Assembly: GCA_016870615.1 (NCBI GenBank)
Contig: VGAZ01000003.1
Coordinates: forward strand, 1 to 59,869
Source: Actinomycetota bacterium
GTDB lineage: Bacteria > Actinomycetota > Humimicrobiia > Humimicrobiales > Humimicrobiaceae
Direction: 5' to 3'
Length of the DNA stretch: 59,869 nt
In this document: positions 23-9,123 of the stretch, in pieces
How the letters are laid out: every line of letters begins with the position of its first letter
Position numbering within the stretch: the stretch's first letter is position 1
Position numbers and translations under genes: made by a program
The notes under the pieces: generated by a model
Told to the model about the DNA's origin: nothing
What the model saw: only the letters and a program-made list of their open reading frames with translations
Databases searched by the model: none

Positions 23-96
23 TGGCTGGGGAGAGAGGATTCGAACCCCTGCTCTACGGGCCAGAGCCGCATGTCCTACCGCTAGACGACTCCCCA
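23..96 (-). tRNA. tRNA-Gln (anticodon CTG), CCA encoded
   Basis: Reverse complement TGGGGAGTCGTCTAGCGGTAGGACATGCGGCTCTGGCCCGTAGAGCAGGGGTTCGAATCCTCTCTCCCCAGCCA folds as a cloverleaf; anticodon loop CTCTGGC gives CTG. Confidence 0.93.
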
Positions 97-253: not shown

Positions 254-424
254 TCAGCTCTGTCCGCACTCCGGACAGTTATTGGCTTCTGAAGGAATAA
301 CAGCTCCGCATTTACTGCAGCGCTTTACAGGTATATTACATGTTTTGCAGAAAGGCACAAACTGTTCTTCCAACTCTCCTTCACAAAATGGACATTTGCA
401 GTCTTTATTCTTAACACCTGACAT
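254..424 (-). CDS. Small zinc-ribbon / rubredoxin-like protein (56 aa), not in the supplied ORF track
   Basis: Manual translation MSGVKNKDCKCPFCEGELEEQFVPFCKTCNIPVKRCSKCGAVIPSEANNCPECGQS*; CxCxxC plus three CxxC motifs; AGGGTGA RBS upstream; directly downstream of nifU. Confidence 0.8.
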   Translation of the reverse strand: MSGVKNKDCKCPFCEGELEEQFVPFCKTCNIPVKRCSKCGAVIPSEANNCPECGQS

Positions 425-442
425 TAAATCACCCTGTTAAAT

Positions 443-826
443 TTATTGTTTTTCTTTTATTTTATTTTGATAATCTTTAATTGCTTCATGTAATGCTTCT
501 GCCCCAAGATTTGAACAATGCATCTTATTCTTTGGAAGCCCGCCAAGCTCTTTTGCTACATCCTTGTTAGTTATTTTTAAAGCTTCTTCAAGGGTCTTGC
601 CTATTGCTAGGTCGCTAACCATGCTTGATACAGCTATTGCTGCTCCACAGCCAAAGGTCTTGAATTTTACATCTTCTATAACATTATCTTTAACTTTTAT
701 ATAAAAAGTCATCATATCCCCGCAAACAGGGTTTCCAATCTCGCCCCTGCCGTCGGCATCCTTTATTTCGCCAACATTGTGAGGAGTCATGAAATGCTGC
801 ATAACTTTTTCACTGTACTGAACCAT
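443..826 (-). CDS. nifU: NifU/IscU-type Fe-S cluster assembly scaffold (N-terminal NifU domain)
   Basis: GNPVCGD, TFGCGAAIAVSS and KMHCSNLGAEAL motifs; all three cluster-ligand Cys and the Asp present. Confidence 0.93.
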   Translation of the reverse strand: MVQYSEKVMQHFMTPHNVGEIKDADGRGEIGNPVCGDMMTFYIKVKDNVIEDVKFKTFGCGAAIAVSSMVSDLAIGKTLEEALKITNKDVAKELGGLPKNKMHCSNLGAEALHEAIKDYQNKIKEKQ

Positions 827-1024: not shown

Positions 1025-2194
1025 TCAGGAGAGCGGCGACATCTTCCTTAATTTTTCAATTATAGAAGGCAAAACTTCCAGGGTTTTTTTAATTTCAGCT
1101 TCAGTATTGTATTTTCCCAGTGAAAAAAGTATGGAACCATTTGCAATTGCAGGTGAAAGACCTATGGCATTTAAAACATGTGAAGTTTTAAGTGCTGCGG
1201 ATGCGCAGGAAGAACCGCTGGAAACAGCTACTCCCTGGCTGTTCAGTAAAAGGGTAATTGATTCTCCTTCAATATATTCAAAGCTTACATGGACATTTCC
1301 AGGAAGCCTCTTTTCAGGATGGCCGTTTAATTTTACTTTTTTAATATTTTTTAAAATACCTTCTGTAAGCATATCCCTTAAAACTGTAATTGCCTTGATA
1401 TTATCTTCCATCTCAAGTTTTGCAATACTGCATGCTTTACCAAACCCGGCAATTGCAGGAACATTTTCTGTGCCGGCTCTTCTGCCGCGTTCCTGTACTC
1501 CGCCAATAATAATGGGGCGCATTTTTATGCCTTTTTTCAAATAAATGGCGGCAGCTCCTTTTGGGCCATACATCTGCTGTGCGCTGAAACTGCAGCAGTC
1601 AATGCCCAGCGCATTTACACCAAGCGGAATAATTCCCGCAGTTGCAGCACAGTCACTGTGCATCACAACTCCTGCCTGCTTTGCCAAATCAGATATATCC
1701 TTAATATGCTGGATTGTGCCAATTTCATTATTTGCATGCATTATGCTTATCAGTACCGTATTTTTCTTAATTGCTTTTTTAACATCATGCGGATCAACAA
1801 TACCATATTTATCAACAGGCAGAAGGGTTACTTCCCAGCCTTCTCTCTGCATTTCTTTTAAAGGATTTAAAATTGAATAATGTTCAATTGCTGAAGTTAT
1901 TATATGCCTGCCTTTATCCCTGTGGGCCCGGGCAATGCCCCACAATGCAGTATTGTTGGACTCAGTTGCGCAGGATGTAAAATATATTTCATCTTTTTCT
2001 GCACCAATAAGGCTGGCAACAGACATGCGCGCTTTTTCCATTTTTTCTTCAGGAATTTCCCCGAAAGAGTGAAAAGATGAAGGGTTGCCGTAATGTTTTT
2101 TAAACAGTGGCAGCATTTCCCTGTAAGCCCTGTCATCAATTCTTGTTGTTGATGCATTATCAAAAAATATCCTGTTATTTTCTAAGTTTCCCAT
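1025..2194 (-). CDS. NifS/IscS-family cysteine desulfurase homologue with substituted active site
   Basis: FDNASTTR, NPSSFHSFG, CATESNN, HANNEIGT, YGPKG, ERGRRAGTEN and SSGSSCASA motifs; SAQQMYGPKG in place of SAHKxYGPKG. Confidence 0.9.
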   Translation of the reverse strand: MGNLENNRIFFDNASTTRIDDRAYREMLPLFKKHYGNPSSFHSFGEIPEEKMEKARMSVASLIGAEKDEIYFTSCATESNNTALWGIARAHRDKGRHIITSAIEHYSILNPLKEMQREGWEVTLLPVDKYGIVDPHDVKKAIKKNTVLISIMHANNEIGTIQHIKDISDLAKQAGVVMHSDCAATAGIIPLGVNALGIDCCSFSAQQMYGPKGAAAIYLKKGIKMRPIIIGGVQERGRRAGTENVPAIAGFGKACSIAKLEMEDNIKAITVLRDMLTEGILKNIKKVKLNGHPEKRLPGNVHVSFEYIEGESITLLLNSQGVAVSSGSSCASAALKTSHVLNAIGLSPAIANGSILFSLGKYNTEAEIKKTLEVLPSIIEKLRKMSPLS

Positions 2195-2651: not shown

Positions 2652-3893
2652 ATGATTATAGGGATAGGAAATGTAGGAAGCACATCTTTTAAAAGTAAGA
2701 TTATAGAAATTTCAGGCAATAATGAAATAAAAACTCTTGGAGAGGCAAATATTGACAGGATTAAATCTGAAGGGGAATCAACTTTTGCGCACAGTATAAA
2801 AGACAACCCCATGGAAAAGGAATCAGTCAATATTTTTGGCCTCGAGGCTTCCATAAACCTTGCTCTTGACTGGTATGTTAAAAATAATGTCATTTTAAAA
2901 CCATCTGATATACAGGCAATGGGCTTTAAATGCATACTTGGCCAAACCAATGGCGCAAATATGCTAACACCGGCTATTCTTGCTGAAATGCAGAAGTATG
3001 CGTTTGTTGCCCCTGTACATAATATCCCCTATATTGAATCAATAGGCATATTCAGTAAAATACTCAATGTGCCAATGGTAGGGGTGTTTGAACCGTCATT
3101 TCATTACTCAATTCCTGAATTCAGGAGACCGCTCAGTTTTCCATGGGAATGGTATGAAAAGCTCGGAATAAAAAAATTCGGTTTTCATGGCTCTTCGCAC
3201 AGGTATCTTTCAGCTATGGCTTTTAAATTGATGGATAGTGAAAATATAAGGCTTATAACAATACACCTTGGCGGCTCAAGTTCAGTATGTGCCGTAAAAA
3301 ACGGAAAATCAATTGACACAAGCATGAGCTTTTCACCAAACTCAGGGCTTTTCCAGGGGACAAGAAGCGGGGATGTTGATGGCACAGCTTTATTATATGC
3401 AATGAAAGAGCTTGGTATTTCAATTGAAGAGGCGCAGTCTGAGATTTCAAATAATGCGGGGCTTAAGGGCATTGCAGGAATCGGCACTGAGGACTTCAGG
3501 GAGATTCTCAAAGCCAGCGAGGAAGGAAATAAAAGGGCAAGGATTGCTATTGAGGCTTACATAGATGGCATAAGAAAATATATAGGCTCTTTTGCTGCTG
3601 TTATGGGCGGCGTTGACTGCCTGGTTTTAAGCGGCGGAATTGGTGAGAAAAATGTAAAAATAAGGCAGAGGCTTCTTGAAGGGCTTGAATTTATGGGCAT
3701 TAAACTTGACGGGATGCGCAATAATGAAATAGGCGGCGGCCAGGGTATGATATCTTCAGATTACTCATTTGAATCAAAGGCAAAAATATTTGTCATACCC
3801 ACTAATGAAGAGCTTGTTGTTGCAAGTTTTACAAAAAAAGTCGTTGAACTCGGAAGGGATTTAAAACCTGAGGAGATGGTTTTCAGGCTTTAA
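2652..3893 (+). CDS. Divergent acetate/propionate kinase-family (ASKHA) protein
   Basis: GNVGSTSFK, FGFHGSSHRYLS, HLGGSSS, GTRSGDVDG, LSGGIGEKN and TNEELVVA motifs. Confidence 0.8.
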   Translation: MIIGIGNVGSTSFKSKIIEISGNNEIKTLGEANIDRIKSEGESTFAHSIKDNPMEKESVNIFGLEASINLALDWYVKNNVILKPSDIQAMGFKCILGQTNGANMLTPAILAEMQKYAFVAPVHNIPYIESIGIFSKILNVPMVGVFEPSFHYSIPEFRRPLSFPWEWYEKLGIKKFGFHGSSHRYLSAMAFKLMDSENIRLITIHLGGSSSVCAVKNGKSIDTSMSFSPNSGLFQGTRSGDVDGTALLYAMKELGISIEEAQSEISNNAGLKGIAGIGTEDFREILKASEEGNKRARIAIEAYIDGIRKYIGSFAAVMGGVDCLVLSGGIGEKNVKIRQRLLEGLEFMGIKLDGMRNNEIGGGQGMISSDYSFESKAKIFVIPTNEELVVASFTKKVVELGRDLKPEEMVFRL

Positions 3894-4058
3894 AACTGCA
3901 AAAGCTTTTTAATTTTGGATTTTTTTATTTTCAAACCTTATTGTAAATTATTTTGTACCATTTATTAATAAAGCTAATATTATAAGCAAAGTTTAAAAAA
4001 CAGCAATTACTGCAGATTTAATATTTAACAAAATATTTGTTAATGTTAATATTACCTG

Positions 4059-5093
4059 ATGAAAAACATGAGTCTTAAATACAGGGCTTCAGATTCAAGG
4101 ATATTTTCTTTTTTAATAATACTTTTAATTTATATACTTGCATTTTTTGCAGGATTTTACACGTTTAAATTTTTAAACAGCTCAGGTTTTCATTTTTTAT
4201 TATCCTTTTTTATTGCAGATGTATCTGCAACCATTCTTGTCTGGTTGTCTGGTATTATACTGAAAAATTCAAGCGTTTATGATCCCTACTGGAGCGTTGC
4301 CCCTTTTGTAATTATCTTTTCCTGGATAATCCTGAGAAATACAGGTTTTGTGTTAACTGATGTACTGCTTCTTGCAGCTGTGTTTTTCTGGGGCACAAGG
4401 CTGACTCTTAACTGGGCAATAAAATGGCAGGGCATGGCTCACCAGGACTGGCGGTACAGCATGCTCAGGAAAAAATCACCAAAAATGTGGTTATTAACAA
4501 ATCTTGTGGGCATAAACCTGGTACCGACCATAGTTGTTTACCTTGCACTGGTTCCTGCTTATTTTACAGTGATATTTAATTCCCCGGCAATGCAAAGCAG
4601 AGTAAATACGGCGTATGGGTTTTACAGCTTAAATCCTGTAATTATTTCGGGATTTATTATTTGTATTGCATCGGCAGTAATCCAGGCAGTTTCTGACCGT
4701 CAGATGGACAGGTTCAGGAAAATTAACAAAACAGGCAGCAGCCCCCAAGTTTATAATGGTGAAAAACCAAGTATTAATAATATATCGCTTAATAGTAATT
4801 CCAGACAGGGCCATATTGACGAAGGCCTGTGGCGCTACAGCCGCCACCCCAATTATTTTAGTGAAGTGCTTTTCTGGTGGGGGATATGGGTAATTCAAAT
4901 TGGCGCAGTTGACTTAAAAAATACAGGCTCATGGATATGGTGGACAATTGCCGGGCCCGTGTTTATGACTCTTTTATTTTTATTTATAAGCATACCCATG
5001 ATGGAGAAATACCTAATATCAAAGCGGCCTTCATACATTGAATACAAAAGCAAGGTTTCAATGCTTATACCATGGTTCAGGGTAAGGCAATAA
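4059..5093 (+). CDS. DUF1295-family membrane protein (steroid 5-alpha-reductase-like C-terminus)
   Basis: Multiple hydrophobic segments; DEGLWRYSRHPNYFSEVLFWWGIW motif. Confidence 0.85.
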   Translation: MKNMSLKYRASDSRIFSFLIILLIYILAFFAGFYTFKFLNSSGFHFLLSFFIADVSATILVWLSGIILKNSSVYDPYWSVAPFVIIFSWIILRNTGFVLTDVLLLAAVFFWGTRLTLNWAIKWQGMAHQDWRYSMLRKKSPKMWLLTNLVGINLVPTIVVYLALVPAYFTVIFNSPAMQSRVNTAYGFYSLNPVIISGFIICIASAVIQAVSDRQMDRFRKINKTGSSPQVYNGEKPSINNISLNSNSRQGHIDEGLWRYSRHPNYFSEVLFWWGIWVIQIGAVDLKNTGSWIWWTIAGPVFMTLLFLFISIPMMEKYLISKRPSYIEYKSKVSMLIPWFRVRQ

Positions 5094-5268
5094 GACCGCA
5101 TGGGCTAGTTGCTGGCTAAAGCTTAAAGGCCGGATAGAATAGAAGGTCTTTTCATTTCAATACTTTTTTTAATTTATTATTTATTGTCAAGTGTTGATCC
5201 CATATCAAAAATAGAGCAGGTAATAGATAAAATTATTTTAGAGTTATTATTGTTTTCGGCTTTGCTAA

Positions 5269-5586
5269 TCAATAGTAAGTTATATATAAGTAAATGTGGT
5301 CAAGATAGATACTTACAGTATCACTGATTAAATCATCATTTGTCTCACCGTCAAGCCCGAGTTTTAACTGGAAATAATCCCTGCCAGTTTCATTTAGTAC
5401 CAGCTGGAGCTGATTCTTTAAGGTGTCTCCAGTAATGGTATAAGAAGTGCTGGAAATTGGTATTTGTGCAAGCCTTGTTCCGCCAGGATTAAAATCTTCC
5501 GCATCCAGGGAATTTCCGTAATTAAAAGCTTTTATATCAGTAATTGTTGCAAATGATTGAGGGTTATTATCAAATGCCTTTAACAA
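5269..5586 (-). pseudogene. Probable C-terminal remnant of a larger protein, overlapping the 3' end of the PfkB gene
   Basis: Only a TTG start inside the upstream gene; same frame closed by a stop just upstream; reads like a truncated beta-rich C-terminus. Confidence 0.35.
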
Positions 5587-6592
5587 CCCTAACCTGGTTT
5601 ACAGCTATTTCTCTTTTTAATTCATCATAATTCAAAAGAATATTCTTGGCACCTTTATGTCCCAGCACTGAGTGTGAGTTGGCTATGGCAAGTCTTATAG
5701 CATTGACAAAGTCATTAGTTTTAATAATTCCTGCTAAAAAGGTGGAAGCAAAGCTATCGCCTGCTCCTGTTGTTTCAATAATTGGAATATCTATGGGATA
5801 GATTGTATAAAAATTAAAATTTTCATCCACACCATATATCGGATTAGAACCATCAGTAATAATTACTGTTTTGGGACCCAGTGATTTTAATATTTGCAGT
5901 TTCTCCTCCATGTTCATATCAGTATTTGCATCTTTATGATCATTGACAATAAGATGTGAAGCTTCTTCCGCATTTAAAATCAAAATATCCAGATTAATAA
6001 GTATTTTTTTTAAAAAATTGCTGCCCTTTTCACACATGTAATTATTGGGATTAAAAGAAGTTTTTATGCCATTTTTTGAAGCAAATCCTGCTATCTCTTC
6101 CATTGTTTTAAATGACTCCTGCATCATTGCTGAAAAATGAAACCACTTTGTCTTAATTTTTTTAAAATCAATCTCTTCTGCTTTTAAGTTATCATTTGCG
6201 CCCCTGTAGGTGAGTATGGTTCTTTGACGCTCAATACTGTCCAGTACTACCGAATAACCTGTTTGCCCATCTTTGCTTACAACACCAAGAAAATCTATTT
6301 TTTCCTTCTTTAACTCATCAAGGATAATATTTCCGTTTAAATCATCTCCTGTCTTTCCAATATATCCAGTTTTTAAACCAATTCTTGAAAGGCAGACCGC
6401 AGCATTGGTTCCTCCTCCGCCAGTATAAAATCCAAGCTCGTTTATTTTAAGTTTTGTTCCCAGTGGATAACAGATAAAATTTGATTGGGAAGTTAAGGTT
6501 CTTGTGCTTATTGATTCTACCCTGTCAGTATAGACAAATGCATCTATGGTATTTGAACCTACAGTAATAACATCATATGCTTCATAATTCAT
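5570..6592 (-). CDS. PfkB/ribokinase-family carbohydrate kinase
   Basis: GGGGTNAAVCLSRIG N-terminal and TTGAGDSFASTFLAG C-terminal signatures. Confidence 0.9.
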   Translation of the reverse strand: MNYEAYDVITVGSNTIDAFVYTDRVESISTRTLTSQSNFICYPLGTKLKINELGFYTGGGGTNAAVCLSRIGLKTGYIGKTGDDLNGNIILDELKKEKIDFLGVVSKDGQTGYSVVLDSIERQRTILTYRGANDNLKAEEIDFKKIKTKWFHFSAMMQESFKTMEEIAGFASKNGIKTSFNPNNYMCEKGSNFLKKILINLDILILNAEEASHLIVNDHKDANTDMNMEEKLQILKSLGPKTVIITDGSNPIYGVDENFNFYTIYPIDIPIIETTGAGDSFASTFLAGIIKTNDFVNAIRLAIANSHSVLGHKGAKNILLNYDELKREIAVNQVRVVKGI

Positions 6593-7304: not shown

Positions 7305-7529
7305 TTATAGCTTGCTTAGAAACTCTTCAATTGTTAACCCTGATTTATCAATCAATGATCTTAAAGTTCCTCTGGCAACTTCTGGATGATTTGGAATAGA
7401 TAATGTTGAGATGTTGCCTTCTTTAGTAAGAATTACATGACTCCCGCTGGGTCTTCTTGCTACCAACCACCCGAACTTTTTAAAAACTCTTATCACATCT
7501 TTGGGTTTAAGTATTGGAACTTGAGTCAC
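7305..7529 (-). CDS. hicA: HicA-family mRNA interferase toxin
   Basis: FKKFGWLVARRPSGSHVILTKEG...LSIPNHPEVARGTLRSLIDKSGLTIEEF. Confidence 0.88.
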   Translation of the reverse strand: MTQVPILKPKDVIRVFKKFGWLVARRPSGSHVILTKEGNISTLSIPNHPEVARGTLRSLIDKSGLTIEEFLSKL

Positions 7530-7917: not shown

Positions 7918-9123
7918 TTAACCTGATATTTCTTTAATGCCGGCAACAAACATTTTATTGTTGCCGAATTTTTCAGCTATTTTTTTTAAAGCGGCAGTTA
8001 GCTTTTCATCTTTTCTTTCTTCTTTAATAAGCACATTATCAAGAATGCAGCTTTTTTCCAGCCCGCTCACATATACACCAATAAGGCGTATTTTTTTTCT
8101 TAAAAGATCAACATTTTTAAAAAGTTTTAGGGAGGACTTATATATGTCAAATATTGCAGACGTATGTTGAGAAATGGATGATCTCCTGGTAATAGTTTTA
8201 AAATCAGAGAATCTTATCTTTATTGTTACCGTTTTACCTTTATAGCCCTTTGAGTAAAGATTTACGGATATTTTCTGGGAAAGAAACAAAAGAATGGACT
8301 TTATAGCATTTATATCGTCTATATCCCTGGAAAAAGTTATCTCCCTGCCAATGGATTTTGCATCATGGAAGGGGATAACGCTGCGATTGTCAATCCCGCA
8401 TGACATTTCATGCATAAAACTGCCCATGGACTCACCGAATTTCTTCCTGAGCGCCTCAGGCGGTATTTTTGAAAGATCACCTATTGTCTTTATGCCCATC
8501 ATATCGAGTGATTTATCTGTAACCCTGCCAACGCCCCATATAAAAGATACAGGCAGCTTCCTTATTTTTGAAATCATTTCAGGGGTGTTTTCAAGCACAG
8601 TCAGGCCGTTTGGCTTCCCAAGGCCTGAAGCAAGCTTTGCAAGGAATTTATTGGGCCCAATGCCTGCTGAAGACGTTAGGTTTGTCTTTTCATAGATTTC
8701 ACCCTTTATTTTTTTTGCTATTTCAAGAGCGCTGCCGAAAAGCCTTTGGCAGCCGCTTACATCAAGAAATCCCTCATCACATCCTATTACTTCAACAAGG
8801 GGGGTATATTTAAAAAATATTTCCCTTATTTTTGCTGATTCTGAAAGGTATTTTTCCATATCCACCGGAACATATATGCCTTCGGGACACAGCCTTCTTG
8901 CCCTTGCAAGAGGCATGCCTGAATGCAGGCCGTATTTTCTTGCTTCATAGGATGCGGTGGATATTACGCCCCGGTTTAAGGGCCCTCCAACTATAAGGGG
9001 CCTGTTTTTGTATTCGGGATGATCGCGCTGCTCAATTTGTGCAAAAAATGCATCCATATCCACATGTATTATTTTCCTGCCGCCAGGGCATGGGGCTGGC
9101 GTATTATTTATGCCTGTATCCAT
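7918..9123 (-). CDS. dinB: Y-family DNA polymerase IV (DinB)
   Basis: IIHVDMDAFFAQIEQRD, GCDEGFLDVSG, SSAGIGPNKFLAKLAS; overlaps dnaE by 16 nt. Confidence 0.93.
   Translation of the reverse strand: MDTGINNTPAPCPGGRKIIHVDMDAFFAQIEQRDHPEYKNRPLIVGGPLNRGVISTASYEARKYGLHSGMPLARARRLCPEGIYVPVDMEKYLSESAKIREIFFKYTPLVEVIGCDEGFLDVSGCQRLFGSALEIAKKIKGEIYEKTNLTSSAGIGPNKFLAKLASGLGKPNGLTVLENTPEMISKIRKLPVSFIWGVGRVTDKSLDMMGIKTIGDLSKIPPEALRKKFGESMGSFMHEMSCGIDNRSVIPFHDAKSIGREITFSRDIDDINAIKSILLFLSQKISVNLYSKGYKGKTVTIKIRFSDFKTITRRSSISQHTSAIFDIYKSSLKLFKNVDLLRKKIRLIGVYVSGLEKSCILDNVLIKEERKDEKLTAALKKIAEKFGNNKMFVAGIKEISG

Follow-up and report, generated by a model that had tools for sequence, protein, structure and literature searches.

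The window analysed here is a stretch of 59,869 nucleotides, contig C3 of an Actinomycetota genome of 2.13 Mb in 235 contigs that is about 93% complete. Near one end, its minus strand encodes a homologue of the cysteine desulfurases NifS and IscS that lacks the lysine forming the Schiff base with PLP (NifS*), followed by a NifU-type scaffold and a small double zinc-ribbon protein (Table 1). A tRNA gene lies just downstream of this set, near the contig end. An acetate/butyrate-kinase family gene diverges from nifS* and recurs beside it in the relatives L011, L023, L027, L126, L132, L134 and L136. A HicA-like small ORF and a Y-family DNA polymerase were recognized by eye from the translations.

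Table 1 Features of the nifS* locus and its surroundings, in window coordinates
Feature	Position	Strand	Basis
NifS*, Lys-less NifS/IscS homologue, 389 aa	1025..2194	-	ORF, profile matches, AlphaFold2 model
CAG CAG, Q206 Q207, replacing E. coli H205 K206 (PLP Schiff-base lysine)	1574..1579	-	
C182-A183-A184, with A184 instead of the PLP-contacting Gln (E. coli Q183)	1643..1651	-	
L356 instead of the substrate-carboxylate Arg (E. coli R354)	1127..1129	-	
Cysteine loop SSGSSCASAA kept, C330 equivalent to E. coli C328	1193..1222	-	
NifU-type Fe-S scaffold, 127 aa, all ligands intact	443..826	-	TIGR03419, 201 bits, above cut-off
Double zinc-ribbon protein, 56 aa, conserved in operon	254..424	-	Pfam DZR, above cut-off
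tRNA gene	26-96	-	
Acetate/butyrate-kinase family gene	2652-3893	+	
HicA-like small ORF	7305-7529	-	Translation, by eye
Y-family DNA polymerase	7918-9123	-	Translation, by eye

A desulfurase fold with an altered active site

Residues of NifS* were mapped by alignment to the IscS proteins of E. coli K-12 and Archaeoglobus fulgidus (PDB 4eb5 sequence), and the roles given to them are those established for IscS. The ORF contains the motifs HSDCAATAGI, FSAQQMYGPKGAA, SSGSSCASAA and SILFSLGKYN. Relative to the E. coli enzyme, H205 and K206 are replaced by Q206 and Q207, Q183 by A184 and R354 by L356. The equivalents of the other contacts that hold PLP in IscS are conserved (T76, H104, N155, D180 and S203, here T77, H105, N156, D181 and S204), as is the cysteine that carries the persulfide on the mobile loop (C328, here C330).

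The class-V aminotransferase fold is recognized by the Aminotran_5 profile (PF00266, 266 bits). The best-matching family is TIGR03402 NifS, with 491.9 bits against a curated equivalog cut-off of 530.75. The AlphaFold2 model has a mean pLDDT of 93.1 and matches IscS/Nfs1 structures in Foldseek with TM scores of 0.93-0.95. It superimposes on A. fulgidus IscS with an rmsd of 1.0-1.4 Å (1.0 Å for 4hvk). The confidence of the model and this close match indicate that the fold, the cysteine loop and the scaffold-binding end are preserved. An alternative start or frame was ruled out, as the ORF is continuous and the model reaches a pLDDT of 93. Among the features expected of a desulfurase, NifS* thus retains the loop cysteine and lacks the Schiff-base lysine, the PLP-contacting glutamine, the substrate-binding arginine and an equivalog-level TIGR03402 score. 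It is close to certain that the protein is not a cysteine desulfurase.

The adjacent NifU contains its Cys/Asp ligands (CGD, FGC and HCS) and passes TIGR03419, the clostridial NifU equivalog model. A sequence-only reading of the locus had described the exchange of His-Lys for Gln-Gln, the loss of the PLP-contacting glutamine in HSDCAA, the change of the substrate arginine to leucine, a retained cysteine loop and fold, and an intact NifU; alignment, model and profiles bear it out on each of these points. It had also advised looking for a second, complete desulfurase in the genome. Two more genes for NifS, located on contigs C161 and C28, have intact AHK/GHK motifs, AVQ and the arginine, with no NifU alongside, which rules out NifS* as the only desulfurase homologue of the genome.

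Conservation and ancestry of Lys-less NifS

Close homologues could all have carried the canonical His-Lys (HK) pair, leaving the window copy as an exception; the opposite was observed. Orthologues with Gln-Gln (QQ) and 60-74% identity are present in 21 further genomes of one GTDB family. In all 22 members, including the window, the Gln-Gln pair, Ala184 and C330 are fixed; Leu356 is found in 21, with Ser once. Both Gln codons drift between CAA and CAG across the 22 genomes, the dN/dS ratio is about 0.06-0.2 for most pairs, and 119 of the 389 positions are invariant. Codon drift under a fixed residue, together with the low dN/dS, indicates that the QQ substitutions are maintained. A sequencing error or a lone decaying copy is ruled out by the 22 separate genomes and the purifying selection. 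The loss of several catalytic residues might suggest a pseudogene, but this explanation is already contradicted by the invariant positions, the fixed QQ pair, the dN/dS values and the retained operon, and its probability is negligible. Among 398 sampled genomes of the phylum, only this one family has matches of at least about 60% identity. In a sister family, a Lys-less NifS with the motif AAQG (L138 in genome G035, 5045-6208) is interrupted by a stop or frame break and is still adjoined by zinc-ribbon, DsrE and TusA genes; it is either a decaying copy or an assembly error.

Other Lys-less NifS proteins, with Q, A, V, S, T or P at the lysine site, occur in Aerophobota, Scalindua, Nitrospirota, Elusimicrobiota, WOR-3, a Desulfobacterales MAG and other families of Actinomycetota. 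In a careful maximum-likelihood tree, calculated without the diagnostic columns, support for the QQ clade is 100/99; a quick tree nests it in a bacterial Lys-less clade (SH-aLRT 96). The archaeal clade with Asn-Asp (ND) at the HK site, which includes A. fulgidus IscS, is separate (100/99), with HK enzymes in between. All 200 of the 200 bootstrap trees examined separate the bacterial from the archaeal Lys-less forms and need two changes. A single Lys-less clade is not rejected by the AU test (p 0.164), and one origin of all these forms is not favoured.

The archaeal proteins are the closest described parallel. Like NifS*, A. fulgidus IscS and Methanosarcina acetivorans IscS1 (MA0808) are Lys-less proteins encoded beside IscU/NifU. 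A. fulgidus IscS, which is known from the structures 4eb5, 4eb7 and 4hvk and the D199K mutant 4r5f, shares 44-46% identity with NifS*. It likewise carries Ala for Gln and Leu for Arg, and it has retained the cysteine loop. It differs in its Asn-Asp pair and its separate clade. NifS* thus has the A. fulgidus-type pattern, in which Lys, Gln and Arg are absent, the loop is kept and a scaffold gene is adjacent. The sequence-only reading had rightly named this archaeal protein as a precedent. Its PDB sequences agree, and it is inactive as a desulfurase and supplies a cysteine that ligates the cluster on IscU (PMC7585200).

TusA and DsrE at Lys-less loci

At most QQ loci the operon also contains TusA (PF01206) and DsrE (PF02635), usually in the order nifS*, nifU, zinc ribbon, tusA, dsrE. 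Both proteins are persulfide carriers. One published study reportedly concerns sulfur transfer by DsrEFH (PMC3397948). The TusA partner matches its profile with 85 bits, and the CPxP cysteine is present in 24 of 25 partners. The DsrE partner (57.9 bits) belongs to the DsrE/F fold family, and its cysteine is conserved in all 14 ungapped sequences. Neighbourhood clustering shows a fusion in genus g9, where TusA carries the zinc ribbon at its N-terminus. In the window genome, a single TusA and a single DsrE are encoded within about 1.1 kb on contig C7; as in G011, the nearest relative, the two genes make up a pair of their own outside the nifS* operon.

Outside the QQ family the arrangement varies: nifS*, nifU, zinc ribbon, dsrE, tusA in WOR-3 (L049), nifS*, dsrE, tusA in Aerophobota (L042) and nifS*, nifU, tusA in Nitrospirota. 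The archaeal order is tusA, (dsrE), iscS*, iscU, with genes overlapping or tightly spaced. The A. fulgidus IscS known from the structures is itself linked to these carriers in its own genome: a gene 99.7% identical to 4eb5 has DsrE directly upstream, and an 87% paralogue in the same genome has TusA-DsrE upstream. At locus L210, the DsrE ORF (4045-4329) before an A. fulgidus-type IscS seems to be without an obvious start; L209 has a complete TusA-DsrE-IscS-IscU set.

We counted TusA genes within a 3-kb radius at those loci whose flanks total 3 kb or more. TusA is found at 11 of 14 QQ loci, 15 of 16 archaeal ND loci and 7 of 11 other Lys-less loci. Together, TusA, often accompanied by DsrE, lies beside 33 of 41 Lys-less genes and 0 of 70 HK desulfurases. 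The Fisher p value of 5e-21 ignores the relatedness of the loci; the tree holds only two phylogenetically independent contrasts, which leaves a phylogenetically corrected test without power. Relaxing the flank requirement adds a single HK locus with TusA (L185), whose HK gene is transcribed divergently from a Lys-less operon. Both classes are often linked to NifU, which therefore does not discriminate between them. In ten loci fetched later, chosen by NifS similarity alone and scored with profiles fixed beforehand, TusA is present at 5/5 Lys-less and 0/5 HK loci. Biased detection was considered, as the linkage profiles were trained on Lys-less neighbours, but a profile-independent scan for CPxP motifs gives the same picture, and Pfam PF01206 genome searches provide a further cross-check.

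A few Lys-less loci have no TusA nearby (Scalindua L043, L046 and L074, Elusimicrobia L045 and kin, and L076). In Elusimicrobiota (L045, L047, L048 and L050), an HK NifS and a Lys-less NifS with an SSSV motif are encoded in tandem, followed by NifU, with no TusA; it is possible that such a pair forms a heterodimer. NifS* could likewise be the non-catalytic half of a complex with an intact NifS copy of its genome. The lysine-less subunit of serine palmitoyltransferase is a precedent, and the window genome does encode two HK desulfurases. However, the HK copies lie apart from the operon in the QQ family, and pairing leaves the TusA/DsrE linkage unexplained, so that we consider a heterodimer improbable for NifS*. 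At a syntenic locus in genome G014, which is 98% complete, a NifU-TusA pair is retained (L167, 4362-5053) and NifS* was not detected. This natural deletion suggests that TusA is tied to NifU itself and that the route may be able to dispense with NifS*; it could also reveal the purpose that NifS* serves.

A proposed persulfide relay

The sequence-only reading had taken NifS* for a sulfide-fed or structural partner of the scaffold and not a desulfurase. The second part stands. The sulfur source needs revision, since Lys-less NifS proteins of both bacteria and archaea are linked to TusA/DsrE and HK enzymes are not. The evidence points to a persulfide relay that feeds the cysteine loop or the scaffold, with sulfide as a possible but less probable source.

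We infer this relay from the linkage and put its probability at roughly 0.55. NifS* would be a conserved, catalytically dead desulfurase paralogue that has abandoned PLP chemistry on cysteine. The retained fold, mobile loop and scaffold-binding end suggest that it may serve as a PLP-free docking platform for NifU. Sulfur would arrive as a persulfide on TusA and DsrE, replacing the desulfurase step; the carriers would come from the same operon in most relatives and from the separate dsrE-tusA pair on C7 in the window genome. The persulfide would then move either to C330 or to a complex-bound NifU, and the cluster would be built on NifU. As in A. fulgidus IscS, C330 may additionally provide a ligand for the growing cluster. 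The upstream source of sulfur is perhaps the intact HK desulfurases encoded at other loci, which could charge TusA. The relay builds on the loss and fixation of residues, on purifying selection and on operon linkage that is present in bacterial and archaeal Lys-less clades and absent at HK loci.

The window genome provides evidence on both sides. Its NifU is the only PF01592 match in a profile search, and no match to SufB/D was found in this approximately 93% complete assembly; both observations favour the relay. A SmsB-like gene occurs in many relatives, so that a copy could sit in the missing part of the genome. The location of TusA and DsrE on another contig counts against the relay, as do the Lys-less loci that lack a neighbouring TusA and the NifU-TusA pair of G014.

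Its main rival is a simpler role, in which NifS* only provides a cysteine ligand and shields the cluster on NifU, the sulfur being H2S. TusA and DsrE would then belong to another pathway, such as tRNA thiolation, that merely shares the operon. The inactive, ligand-donating A. fulgidus IscS (PMC7585200) and the sulfide-fed SMS system (PMC12192291) are consistent with this role, and the owners of NifS* are probably anaerobes. A persulfide carrier would, however, be superfluous for sulfide, whereas TusA, alone or together with DsrE, is linked to the Lys-less forms of bacteria and archaea and not to the HK forms. We therefore regard sulfide feeding as rather unlikely, though a serious contender.

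Operon linkage itself gives no direction of sulfur flow. In E. coli, the established direction is from IscS to TusA; TusA and IscU bind next to each other on IscS, at sites from which Cys328 can be reached, and mixed complexes form (PMC11302665). NifS*-NifU could accordingly supply TusA/DsrE with the sulfur for thiolating tRNA or cofactors. This reversal is highly improbable, as NifS* is devoid of the residues that mobilize sulfur, and something must load it first. The carrier linkage, combined with what is known of the A. fulgidus and E. coli proteins, suggests instead that TusA/DsrE feed the loop of NifS* or the docked NifU.

The proposed relay has counterparts in known systems. The minimal ISC system (MIS; PMC12192291), or clostridial-type NifS-NifU, has the same two-gene layout of desulfurase and scaffold, with a TIGR03419-type NifU. 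Unlike in MIS, the desulfurase member NifS* has lost its catalytic residues, and the set is extended by TusA, DsrE and a zinc ribbon. The IscS-TusA-IscU hub of E. coli (3lvj, 3lvl) uses the same three protein families and adjacent TusA and IscU sites. There, TusA is loaded by a catalytically active, PLP-dependent IscS, whereas the proposed flow runs towards NifS*/NifU.

Lys-less IscS proteins are already known. In the open-access literature searched, which covers few subscription papers or preprints, we found neither a general coupling of TusA/DsrE to Lys-less IscS nor a description of the bacterial QQ clade; the linkage is apparently new. Tentatively, and with somewhat less than even odds, we suggest a widespread PLP-independent route to Fe-S clusters, in which dead NifS/IscS proteins are persulfide platforms for NifU/IscU loaded by TusA/DsrE and which evolved perhaps twice, in bacteria and in archaea. 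If this is true, the route would include the long-known inactive IscS of A. fulgidus, whose missing sulfur source would be the neighbouring DsrE/TusA genes.

How an inactive IscS is supplied with sulfur has been a question since the A. fulgidus structures. The linkage names TusA and DsrE as candidates, and their role can be tested with four or five small soluble proteins. Annotating every NifS/IscS homologue that adjoins NifU as a desulfurase is wrong in several phyla, and the nature of these proteins bears on the sulfur donors of early anaerobic Fe-S machineries.
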